A DNA stretch of 64,000 bases from Gammaproteobacteria bacterium (lineage in GTDB: Bacteria; Pseudomonadota; Gammaproteobacteria; Nitrosococcales; Methylophagaceae): contig JAOUJZ010000007.1 in assembly GCA_029882915.1 (NCBI GenBank), positions 1 through 64,000 of the forward strand. The letters run 5' to 3'. Of this stretch, positions 20,472 to 24,308 are shown in pieces. The position numbers and the translations under genes were made by a program. Below the pieces are notes generated by a model. The model searched no databases, was not told where the DNA came from, and worked only from the letters and a program-made list of their open reading frames with translations. Position 1 is the first letter of the stretch. Each line of letters begins with the position of its first letter.

Positions 20472-21956
20472 TTATCGTCTGCCAGCTTTTTGCGCATCAA
20501 GGCGGCGTAGAAACTCACGCATAATGTCATCATAAAGGGCGACACCAAGATAGGCATCTTCAACACCGCTATCAATGCTCGGATTGTCATTAATTTCTAT
20601 CAAGACAACCCGGTCACCACTTTGTTTAATGTCGAGTCCATATAGGCCATTTCCAACGAGTCTGGCAGCTTTAGTGGCTATTTTTAATACTTTATCCGGT
20701 ACTTCGCTGATAGGAATAGCCGCTGATTTGCCACTATCGGTTCCTTTGTTGCCGTCGTGGTTATAGATTTGCCAATGGCCTTTACTCATAAAGTACTGAC
20801 AGGCAAAGATGGGTTTTTTGTTAAAAACACCAATACGCCAGTCGTAGTCGGTGTACATGTATTCCTGTAGTAGAACAATAGCGGATTTTTGAAAAAACTG
20901 GATAGCATGATGGCGGAGTTCTTCTTCGGAATTCACTTTGATAATACCCCGGGAAAATGCGCCATCAGGAATTTTCATTACCAGTGGAAAGGAAATATCA
21001 TTGCAGATTCGATTCAAGCCGGCCTTGTCGTTACGATAAAGCAGATAAGAGTCTGGCATTGGTAAGTTGTTGGCAGCGAGCAATTCTTTAAGATAGATTT
21101 TATTGGTGCAACGAAGAATAGACGTTGGATCATCAATAACCACCAGGCCTTCGCTTTCTGCTCTGCGCGCGAATTTGTATGTGTGATTATTGGTCGCGGT
21201 CGTTTCACGAATAAATAAGGCATCGTATTCGGCCAGCCGAATGTAGTCTTTAGGTGTGATGAGTTCAACATCAATCCCAATACGGCGCCCACTTTTGATG
21301 AAATTATTAAGTGCAGTACTATCGCTGGGGGGGATTTTTTCATCTGGATTATGCAAGATCGCCATGTCATATCGAAAACTGCGTTTCTTAGATGGTTTTC
21401 GCCACAATTTACGATCAAAGTGATCCAGCGCATTGGCAAAAGAGTCTTGTTCATTTTCAGTCAATTTATTAATCGCACCGGCTCCGATACGACGAATTTG
21501 CCAATGTTCTTTATAACTAAATTCAATTTCTATGATCGGACACGCAAATTGATCATAAATCTGGCGGGCAAGCTTTTGCAGACTAGGAATTTCACAGTGA
21601 CCAAAAAAGACTTTAACGACGAAACCGAGTTGTTCCGCATTGTTTGTTGCCGAAATTAATTTGTCTAATTGAAATGCGAGTTCGGAAATATCATAGGCAT
21701 AAAGACTTTTACGGGATAAATCATTGATAGTACGTAGACTAGGGACAACCTTATGGCCACGTGCTTCAGAAACCATCGAGCAGTAATAGCCAGGGCTGAG
21801 GTAGTCCAGACTGTGGCAAAGATTAATAATTTGCGCTCGCCCTCTATCCATCTGCGACGGATTTTGCAGGTAATCGTCTACAGTGACAACCTGGACGCTA
21901 GGGAAATAGGGTGCCCAGTCTTCTTTATTCTCTATTACTATCAGACGGTTAGACAT
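20472..21956 (-). CDS. RimK-type ATP-grasp ligase with N-terminal RLAN domain
   Basis: C-terminal half: CTNKIYLKELLAANNLPMPDS, FPLVMKIPDGAFSRGI, VVLIEINDNPSIDSGVED (ATP-grasp). N-terminal half MSNRLIVIENKEDWAPYFPSVQVVTVDDYL... resembles RLAN. Confidence 0.85.
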   Translation of the reverse strand: MSNRLIVIENKEDWAPYFPSVQVVTVDDYLQNPSQMDRGRAQIINLCHSLDYLSPGYYCSMVSEARGHKVVPSLRTINDLSRKSLYAYDISELAFQLDKLISATNNAEQLGFVVKVFFGHCEIPSLQKLARQIYDQFACPIIEIEFSYKEHWQIRRIGAGAINKLTENEQDSFANALDHFDRKLWRKPSKKRSFRYDMAILHNPDEKIPPSDSTALNNFIKSGRRIGIDVELITPKDYIRLAEYDALFIRETTATNNHTYKFARRAESEGLVVIDDPTSILRCTNKIYLKELLAANNLPMPDSYLLYRNDKAGLNRICNDISFPLVMKIPDGAFSRGIIKVNSEEELRHHAIQFFQKSAIVLLQEYMYTDYDWRIGVFNKKPIFACQYFMSKGHWQIYNHDGNKGTDSGKSAAIPISEVPDKVLKIATKAARLVGNGLYGLDIKQSGDRVVLIEINDNPSIDSGVEDAYLGVALYDDIMREFLRRLDAQKAGRR

Positions 21957-22123
21957 TTTCTTGGTAAAACCCTTTTATATAATCGGTTGCTTAAAATGCG
22001 AATAGTAAAGATATTATTAGCTTGAGGTGAGATTTATTTTCACGAAAGGTTTTTAGGGACTAGCTTAATGTTGAAAACTCACATATCCTTCGCGGAAAAT
22101 CGTTCCTTAGGAGAGCGTGTGTT

Positions 22124-23194
22124 ATGTATGCCAGCGCTATTTTAGATGTTTTTTCACAACGTTATCTCGATGCACGCAATCAGTTTATTGGTGCTGCAGA
22201 AACCAGCCCGATAGTGGCAAAGCTAAATGGATTTCAACATCCCCTGAAAGGACCAAAAGGAGAAAAGCTGTGTTGTGATGTTGCATGGTTGGGGGACCTT
22301 CAGGCAAAACAGGTTGTGATTCTGGTTTCAGGATTGCATGGTGTTGAAGGCGGTGTCGGATCGGCGATACAGACGGACTTTATTAATCGATATCGTCGTT
22401 TACCGCAGGATGTGTGTGTAATAGTTGTGCATGCGCTTAACCCTTGGGGGTTCGCATCTGCCTGTCGCAATGACCATGAAGGCATTGATATTAACCGTAA
22501 CTTTGTCGATTTTTCAGCATCGTTACCCGAATTCAGGGCAGAGGATCTTTGGCAGAAACTAGCCAGTAGTGAACTTGATATTGAGATAGTCGCTCAAGAT
22601 CGTGAGCAGTTTGATGTATTGAGTGAGGGGCAGTATTCTGAATCAAAAGCGCTTTACTACGGTGGTCAGCAACCCAGTTGGTCACGGCAATGCATAGAAC
22701 AGTTAGCAGGTCAGCTTAAACCGGAAACACGAGACAGTATTATAGTGATTGATATTCATAGTGGTCTCGGCCCGTATGGTTATGGCGAGCTCATTAGTGA
22801 TCATCCGATGGATAGTCCAGCAAGAGATATTGCACTGAATGTTTTTGGTGCCACGGTGACTGAACCGGTTCTGGGAACATCCAGTTCAGGAGAGAAGCGG
22901 GGCTTACATGATTACTTCTGGCATGCTCTCGGCGATCATGTCTGCTTCGTAACACTGGAGTTTGGGACTTTTGGGTATCAGGAAATGTTACGCGTCTTAT
23001 TGGCGGATCAAAAGCTACAGCAGCAAGTGACAGATTGGCAGGACGATGAAACATTGGAAGTGAAACATGCCATGCAGGACTTTTTCTGTCCCGATGAAAA
23101 ACAATGGCAAGAGCTGGTTTTATTCCGAGGGCGGCAGGTGATTGAAATGGCATTAGCCAGTTTAACGGGATCAGGTAACCACGTCGGTGAGTAA
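22124..23194 (+). CDS. DUF2817 / M14-like metallopeptidase family protein
   Basis: VILVSGLHGVEGGVGSAIQ (HxxE-like), NPWGFASACRNDHEGIDINRNFVDF, VIDIHSGLGPYGYGE. Confidence 0.8.
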   Translation: MYASAILDVFSQRYLDARNQFIGAAETSPIVAKLNGFQHPLKGPKGEKLCCDVAWLGDLQAKQVVILVSGLHGVEGGVGSAIQTDFINRYRRLPQDVCVIVVHALNPWGFASACRNDHEGIDINRNFVDFSASLPEFRAEDLWQKLASSELDIEIVAQDREQFDVLSEGQYSESKALYYGGQQPSWSRQCIEQLAGQLKPETRDSIIVIDIHSGLGPYGYGELISDHPMDSPARDIALNVFGATVTEPVLGTSSSGEKRGLHDYFWHALGDHVCFVTLEFGTFGYQEMLRVLLADQKLQQQVTDWQDDETLEVKHAMQDFFCPDEKQWQELVLFRGRQVIEMALASLTGSGNHVGE

Positions 23195-24308
23195 TAGCGA
23201 TATTCAATTCAGACCAGCGATAGCGGCAGATGTGGCACAACTGGTAGCGCTAGAAAATCAGTGTTTTGATAGCGATCAATTATCTAGACGAAGTTTCAAA
23301 TGGATGATCAATAGGGCCAACGCTTTATTGCTGGTGGCAGAAGAGCAAACTAATATTGTGGGCTACATTTTGCTGCTTTATCACCAAGGCACTTCCTTGG
23401 GGCGTGTTTATTCTCTGGCGATAGCCGAACAGTTTCGTAATCGTGGTCTGGCTCGGCAATTAATGCAAATAGCAGAACGCGAAGCATTGAATAACGGCCG
23501 CAGCTTTTTACGACTTGAAGTCAGGCCTGATAATGCGGGTGCTATCAGACTGTATGAGAGTCTGGGCTATAAAACATTCGAGATAGTAAGTGATTACTAT
23601 GATGATCACACTGACGCTGTAAGAATGATGAAAGTGTTGCATCATCAACCTGAGCTGGTACATCCACATGTTGCTCATTATTCACAAACCACCGATTTCA
23701 CCTGTGGTCCCGCCTCATTGATGATGGTGATGAAAACGTTAAGACCCAGTATTGAATTGAGCCGAAGTCTGGAGTTGCAGATATGGCGAGAAGCCACCAC
23801 TATTTTTATGACATCGGGTCATGGTGGTTGCAGTCCACAAGGCCTGACTCTGGCCGCTAACAAAAGAAATTTTGTGACAACATTAATAACAAATAGCATA
23901 GATACACCATTTATTAATAGTGTGCGTAGTGAAGAAAAAAAATCAGTTGTTGAGCTGGTTCATCAGGACTTTCAGACTGAAATTGAACAAACTGATATTA
24001 AGGTAGAAATTGGTAATATTGATGTTGAAGTATTGCGGCCTATGGTTGAGAAAGGTGCTTTGGCCGTTTTACTGATAAGCTCTTATCGGCTGAATAAAAG
24101 TAAATCGCCCCACTGGGTAGTCCTGGTATCGATATCTGATACTTTTGTGTATTTTCATGATCCTGATATTGATTGGGATGAAAATAAAAGTGTCACAGAT
24201 TGTCTGTATATACCGGTGACGCACAAGGAGTTCAACCAAATATTAGGCTATGGACAGCCTCGCTATCAGGCTGCAGTTATTTTACAACCGGATAGCGAGC
24301 GCTTTTAA
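23187..24308 (+). CDS. Fused GNAT N-acetyltransferase / C39-like cysteine peptidase
   Basis: GNAT motif SLAIAEQFRNRGLARQLM; peptidase YSQTTDFTCGPASLMM, SPHWVVLVSI, FHDPDI; GTG start overlapping the upstream ORF by 8 bp. Confidence 0.85.
   Translation: MSNSDIQFRPAIAADVAQLVALENQCFDSDQLSRRSFKWMINRANALLLVAEEQTNIVGYILLLYHQGTSLGRVYSLAIAEQFRNRGLARQLMQIAEREALNNGRSFLRLEVRPDNAGAIRLYESLGYKTFEIVSDYYDDHTDAVRMMKVLHHQPELVHPHVAHYSQTTDFTCGPASLMMVMKTLRPSIELSRSLELQIWREATTIFMTSGHGGCSPQGLTLAANKRNFVTTLITNSIDTPFINSVRSEEKKSVVELVHQDFQTEIEQTDIKVEIGNIDVEVLRPMVEKGALAVLLISSYRLNKSKSPHWVVLVSISDTFVYFHDPDIDWDENKSVTDCLYIPVTHKEFNQILGYGQPRYQAAVILQPDSERF

Follow-up and report, generated by a model that had tools for sequence, protein, structure and literature searches.

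What do three adjoining genes of a methylophagaceous gammaproteobacterium (GCA_029882915.1) do, and do they act together? The window, the whole stretch of 64,000 nucleotides from contig JAOUJZ010000007.1 that was analysed here, carries at 20472-24308 a minus-strand gene for a ligase with an RLAN and a RimK-type ATP-grasp domain, divergent from two plus-strand genes for a DUF2817 M14-like metallopeptidase and for a GNAT domain fused to a C39-like papain-fold domain (DUF3335). An earlier note, written from the letters of the window, had proposed this trio as a peptide-modification system. We compared the linkage, active sites and partner genes of the trio across other genomes. The assembly holding the window has 94 contigs, totals 1.94 Mb and is 90% complete. 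The three genes very probably belong to a single uncharacterised pathway, in which the tail of a peptide or protein is assembled and trimmed.

Linkage and conservation of the trio

We mapped the best 80 DUF2817 relatives in GTDB genomes for partner genes and tallied about 90 deduplicated DUF2817 loci. The results revealed trio loci in Methylophaga (M. aminisulfidivorans, L093, among them), Marinospirillum, Litorivivens, Hydrogenovibrio, Thiomicrorhabdus, Alcanivoracaceae, Ketobacter, Methylomicrobium, Methyloprofundus and gamma proteobacterium HdN1, and the linkage was also found in Mariprofundaceae (L099) and one alphaproteobacterial metagenome-assembled genome (L117). The earlier note had stated that its proposal would fall if adjacency to DUF2817 were peculiar to this genome; it is not, being shared by Mariprofundaceae, Methylophaga and many other Gammaproteobacteria. 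Among 25 genomes sampled from the genus, RLAN, DUF3335 and full-length DUF2817 were present and always adjacent in 6 genomes, and none of the three was present in the other 19 (nominal Fisher p = 6e-6); because these genomes are related, the all-or-none pattern may reflect only a few events. The genus pattern and the linkage across families and in another proteobacterial lineage together rule out chance juxtaposition.

Gene order varied among the linked loci. The commonest arrangement, a ligase gene divergent from DUF2817 and GNAT-C39 genes, accounted for 35 of the about 90 DUF2817 loci, counting those without DUF155, a further neighbour described below. In other loci all three genes were codirectional with either the ligase first or DUF2817 last, or GNAT-C39 was followed by the ligase with DUF2817 convergent, or DUF2817 and GNAT-C39 stood together with no adjacent ligase. 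For the last arrangement, RLAN was found elsewhere in the genome in 5/5 loci checked, and it was absent from two genomes with a lone DUF2817. One separated RLAN gene (genome G462) is followed by an open reading frame of 529 amino acids (L208:3848-5437) whose N-terminus resembles a different GNAT.

The ligase gene (20472-21956, minus strand) encodes 494 amino acids, with RLAN at residues 27-176 and ATP-grasp at about 200-470. Its start is separated from the DUF2817 gene (22124-23194, plus strand, 356 amino acids) by 167 base pairs (bp; 21957-22123), where matches to promoter or terminator consensus sequences stayed at the level of chance in shuffled controls, so that both promoters are presumed from gene layout alone. 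The fusion gene (23187-24308, plus strand, 373 amino acids, GTG start at 23187) shares 8 bp with the DUF2817 gene, which fits translational coupling, and encodes the GNAT domain in its N-terminal half (23187-23651) and the C39-like domain thereafter (23652-24308). The three reading frames, the gap, the overlapping pair and the motifs TDFTCGPAS, SPHWVV and HDPD of the fusion were all recovered as the earlier note had described them.

Profile searches assigned each domain to its family. At Pfam cut-offs, the ligase scored 167 bits against RLAN (PF14401; cut-off 25) and 35.8 bits against RimK ATP-grasp (cut-off 21), the M14-like protein scored 260.9 bits against DUF2817 (PF10994; cut-off 23), and the two halves of the fusion scored 65.8 bits against GNAT (cut-off 20.7) and 275.2 bits against DUF3335 (PF11814, 'Peptidase_C39 like'; cut-off 25). 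Models of narrower or neighbouring families were below cut-off: for the ligase, the S6-glutamate-ligase equivalog NF007764 (28.4 bits, cut-off 331) and the RimK subfamily TIGR00768 (87.4 bits, cut-off 143.4); for the DUF2817 protein, Peptidase M14 (PF00246; 11.5 bits, cut-off 21.6); for the GNAT domain, RimI (TIGR01575; 79 bits, cut-off 86.4) and N-acetylglutaminylglutamine synthetase (TIGR03103; 21.7 bits, cut-off 569); and for the fusion C-terminus, Peptidase C39 (PF03412; 13.6 bits, cut-off 22) and Peptidase_C39_2 (21.6 bits, cut-off 24). The label C39-like therefore holds for a C39-like family, DUF3335, and not for Peptidase_C39 itself. An anti-phage defence system was considered and rejected, as none of the PADLOC models matched at E <= 0.01.

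Active-site residues were counted in deduplicated alignments of relatives picked by similarity, so that the counts show conservation among recognisable orthologues. Ten ligase residues (K286, K328, Q364, D372, R374, D442, K444, E454, N456 and N458) were invariant (122/122), and the RLAN domain had a conserved block of its own with N45, Y58, R66 and P72 invariant. The DUF2817 protein carries the HxxE motif (H72/E75), third His ligand (H212), NR carboxylate-binding motif (NRNF, R125) and catalytic-type Glu (E279) of an M14-like zinc enzyme, all invariant in 93/93 relatives; it also weakly matches the solved M14-like protein Rep34 (4oko). In the DUF3335 domain the papain-like set of oxyanion Gln (Q167), Cys (C173), His (H309) and Asp (of HDPD; protein numbering throughout) is present, with Gln, Cys and His kept in 101/101 orthologues; the fourth position is Asp in 92 of them and Glu in the other 9. 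These results rule out degenerate or lost active sites across the 93-122 orthologues, and the loss of ATP-grasp or C39 catalytic residues that the earlier note had treated as decisive against it did not appear.

The AlphaFold2 model of the ligase (mean predicted local distance difference test score, pLDDT, 89.9) has ArgX, RimK, LysX and D-Ala ligase as its nearest folds, with about 300 aligned columns of the 494 residues and a Foldseek TMt of about 0.73-0.84 against RimK, ArgX and LysX; the predicted ATP-grasp fold, with its ATP and Mg residues conserved, is that expected of a RimK-type enzyme. The GNAT-C39 fusion was modelled at a mean pLDDT of 92.6. RimI and Ard1/Naa10, which are N-alpha-acetyltransferases, were nearest to the GNAT domain in sequence and fold, the fold search having used the whole fusion, in which GNAT matches dominated.

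A variable hydrolase and a linked DUF155 gene

We also surveyed 73 RLAN loci from class and phylum samples. RLAN occurred in 34/143 gammaproteobacterial genomes (about a quarter), nearly all of different genera. A GNAT lay near RLAN in 60/73 loci, in agreement with the RLAN-beside-GNAT/papain-like neighbourhood that the earlier note had described, and a stand-alone C39_2 lay near RLAN in 9/73. DUF2817 was found in 10/73, of which 7 came from one family (f167), leaving fewer independent lineages. In three loci that lacked DUF2817 (L040:9347-11041, L046:9297-11066 and L055), the gene lying divergently beside GNAT-C39 encoded a classical M14 carboxypeptidase (PF00246). Ten loci from many different families (L039, L043, L045, L047, L053, L060, L061, L065, L171 and L177) had argE, encoding an ArgE-like M20 enzyme, beside RLAN/GNAT-C39, some with argA as well, although argE and argA may be no more than conserved neighbours. 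A further kind of operon, here called type B (L051, L052, L054, L057, L058, L063 and L069), combined a stand-alone C39_2, an RLAN ligase, a GCS2 ligase and an N-formylglutamate amidohydrolase, and its C39 domain was homologous to DUF3335 (hhalign probability 96%, E 4e-9).

Given these counts, RLAN and GNAT are the core and the hydrolase varies by lineage. Comparison by hhalign gave no usable support for a common ancestry between the DUF2817 profile and those of the N-formylglutamate amidohydrolase, M14 or M20 partners; that these occupy the same slot is thus a statement about position and not about homology. The M14-like accessory proposed earlier is accordingly a genuine, recurrent partner, but not the usual one. 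Glutamate as the residue ligated and deglutamylation as the part played by the M14-like enzyme, a parallel drawn in the earlier note, are analogies: the ligase scores far below the S6-glutamate-ligase cut-off and also below that of the RimK subfamily.

A recurring neighbour of about 264 amino acids belongs to DUF155, the RMND1/Sif2-Sif3/Mrx10 family, and has a hydrophobic C-terminus in the sequences. It was found in 18 fetched loci (17 distinct, L099 and L180 being apparently one contig), in several orientations and in both locus types (including L046, L058, L068, L099, L103, L110, L122, L129, L131, L134, L149, L169, L172, L173, L175, L180 and L194). The host copy lies on another contig (G000:C49:22595-23098; L213:7452-8252). 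Across the 143 gammaproteobacterial genomes, DUF155 was over its cut-off in 22, and 13 genomes had both DUF155 and RLAN compared with an expected 5.2 (p = 1e-4); in the genus sample it was present in 5/6 trio genomes and 0/19 others. These results indicate that DUF155, overlooked in the earlier note, is a further linked component, the link being a correlation. At L102:6997-7791, DUF155 adjoins DUF2817 in a fetched stretch that contains no RLAN and no GNAT-C39.

RMND1 is among listed mitochondrial translation genes (PMC5203842). The DUF155 link, if true, would give a functional context to bacterial relatives of this human gene. It is a speculative and improbable extension that the RLAN ligase, GNAT-C39, DUF2817 and DUF155 make up a single reversible protein-tagging pathway tied to membrane translation, with a logic like that of ribosomal modification by RimK and RimI, which would place the bacterial relatives of RMND1 in a biochemical context.

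Polypeptide tail or small metabolite

The nearest solved or named relatives of the trio are ArgX with LysW, RimK with RpsF, and LysX for the ligase, RimI and Ard1/Naa10 for the GNAT, a C39 leader peptidase and BtrH-like proteins, both at marginal E-values, for the C39-like domain, and the M14-like Rep34 for DUF2817. Among such enzymes, the C-terminus is the target of RimK, ArgX, LysX and M14, and the N-terminus that of RimI and Ard1, whereas C39 acts on leader peptides. A search for a precursor of a ribosomally synthesised and post-translationally modified peptide near the trio loci found no small open reading frame conserved beyond noise, which agrees with the earlier impression that no substrate peptide was obvious. 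Because polypeptides are the substrates of these relatives and the trio has no conserved precursor gene in its vicinity, we favour a polypeptide acceptor encoded elsewhere in the genome. The ATP-grasp enzyme would activate a carboxylate with ATP and ligate one or more amino acids, as RimK, ArgX and LysX do at protein C-termini; the GNAT would acylate a free amine; the C39-like domain may act on the product as a cysteine peptidase or transpeptidase; and DUF2817, as a putative zinc carboxypeptidase-type hydrolase, would cut residues from the free C-terminus. We infer both the order of these reactions and a polypeptide rather than metabolite substrate, and put at roughly 40% the probability that the pathway serves both synthesis and turnover of a peptide tail, amide-linked and N-acylated, on a polypeptide encoded elsewhere.

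Several observations weigh against this proposal. In 13/73 RLAN loci the GNAT came without a detected C39, and most RLAN loci lacked DUF2817, so that the peptidase steps are either not always needed or supplied elsewhere; the full ligate, acetylate, cleave and trim set that the earlier note had read at this locus is not general, with M14, M20/ArgE-like or N-formylglutamate amidohydrolase enzymes in other loci. Conversely, DUF2817 stood alone in 24 loci, for the most part from Alphaproteobacteria and of 36-45% identity; in this class it is also present where RLAN is lacking. The GCS2 ligase of type B loci belongs to a family associated with small gamma-glutamyl compounds. The evidence accommodates both a protein target and a small metabolite.

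The main rival is accordingly a small-metabolite pathway, in which ligase and GNAT (in type B, GCS2) would produce a di- or oligopeptide with an N-acyl group, such as an osmolyte, thiol or signal, that the hydrolases recycle; the N-acetylglutaminylglutamine amide and glutathione/phytochelatin pathways offer possible analogues. The type B operon reads as two amide-forming enzymes with two hydrolases, argE and argA at the ten flanked loci encode enzymes of N-acetyl amino acids, and no protein target is encoded near the trio. However, the closest relatives of the GNAT are protein N-alpha-acetyltransferases, those of the ligase are RimK, ArgX and LysX, which modify proteins, the GNAT falls far short of the N-acetylglutaminylglutamine synthetase model, and the host retains glutathione synthetase, which rules out replacement of glutathione by the trio. 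We consider this pathway possible and tentatively lean against it.

With either substrate, the C39-like domain might be an acyl or aminoacyl transferase resembling BtrH or phytochelatin synthase, making the fusion a double transferase and DUF2817 the sole hydrolase. Papain-like folds do include acyltransferases and phytochelatin synthase (PMC10318531), and the best PDB matches of the DUF3335 profile were BtrH-N-containing proteins (E about 0.01), beside a C39 leader peptidase (0.015); as neither match is more than marginal and GNAT hits made up most of the fold search run with the whole fusion, we judge a transferase rather unlikely. It would be a surprise if the genes were neighbours by shared history only and belonged to no common pathway. 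The single divergent order of most linked loci could be inherited, and a single gain or loss, or a pair of such events, could explain the genus pattern, but the link survives in several distinct gene orders, a separated RLAN is still retained, and the linkage spans Gammaproteobacteria, Mariprofundaceae and an alphaproteobacterial genome. The partner set, in which GNAT is almost constant, C39 is present in most cases, some lineages add a metallo-hydrolase and DUF155 is often near, renders the pathway amenable to test.

Relation to known systems

In the open-access literature searched, we found neither a functional paper on RLAN ligases or DUF2817 nor a prior report of the DUF2817 or DUF155 link; both links look new within that literature, whereas the GNAT-papain fusion context had been predicted before. 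The ligase shares its ATP-grasp core and catalytic residues with RimK (the S6 glutamate ligase), LysX and ArgX, and differs from them in an extra RLAN domain of about 150 amino acids, in RimK scores below cut-off and in its neighbours. Similarly, the GNAT domain resembles RimI and Ard1 most closely in sequence and fold, but is fused here to a C39-like domain. The N-acetylglutaminylglutamine amide operon, which comprises a GNAT-ATP-grasp fusion, an amidotransferase and a peptidase, has an acetyltransferase/ligase/peptidase toolkit in common with the trio; the trio differs by its sub-cut-off TIGR03103 score and by having no amidotransferase gene at this locus. Type B operons have a homologous RLAN ligase, a homologous C39 domain and a metal-type hydrolase in common with the trio, with GCS2 in place of GNAT and N-formylglutamate amidohydrolase in place of DUF2817. 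DUF3335-GNAT fusions with a possible peptide ligase or acetylase role have already been published, according to PMC10318531, citing Iyer et al. 2009 (doi 10.1039/b917682a). Compared with the RLAN-ATP-grasp/GNAT-papain-like amidoligase neighbourhoods predicted there, the loci described here likewise set a GNAT-DUF3335 fusion amid predicted peptide ligases, and appear to add two genes, the conserved one for the M14-like DUF2817 enzyme and the linked one for the DUF155/RMND1 homologue.

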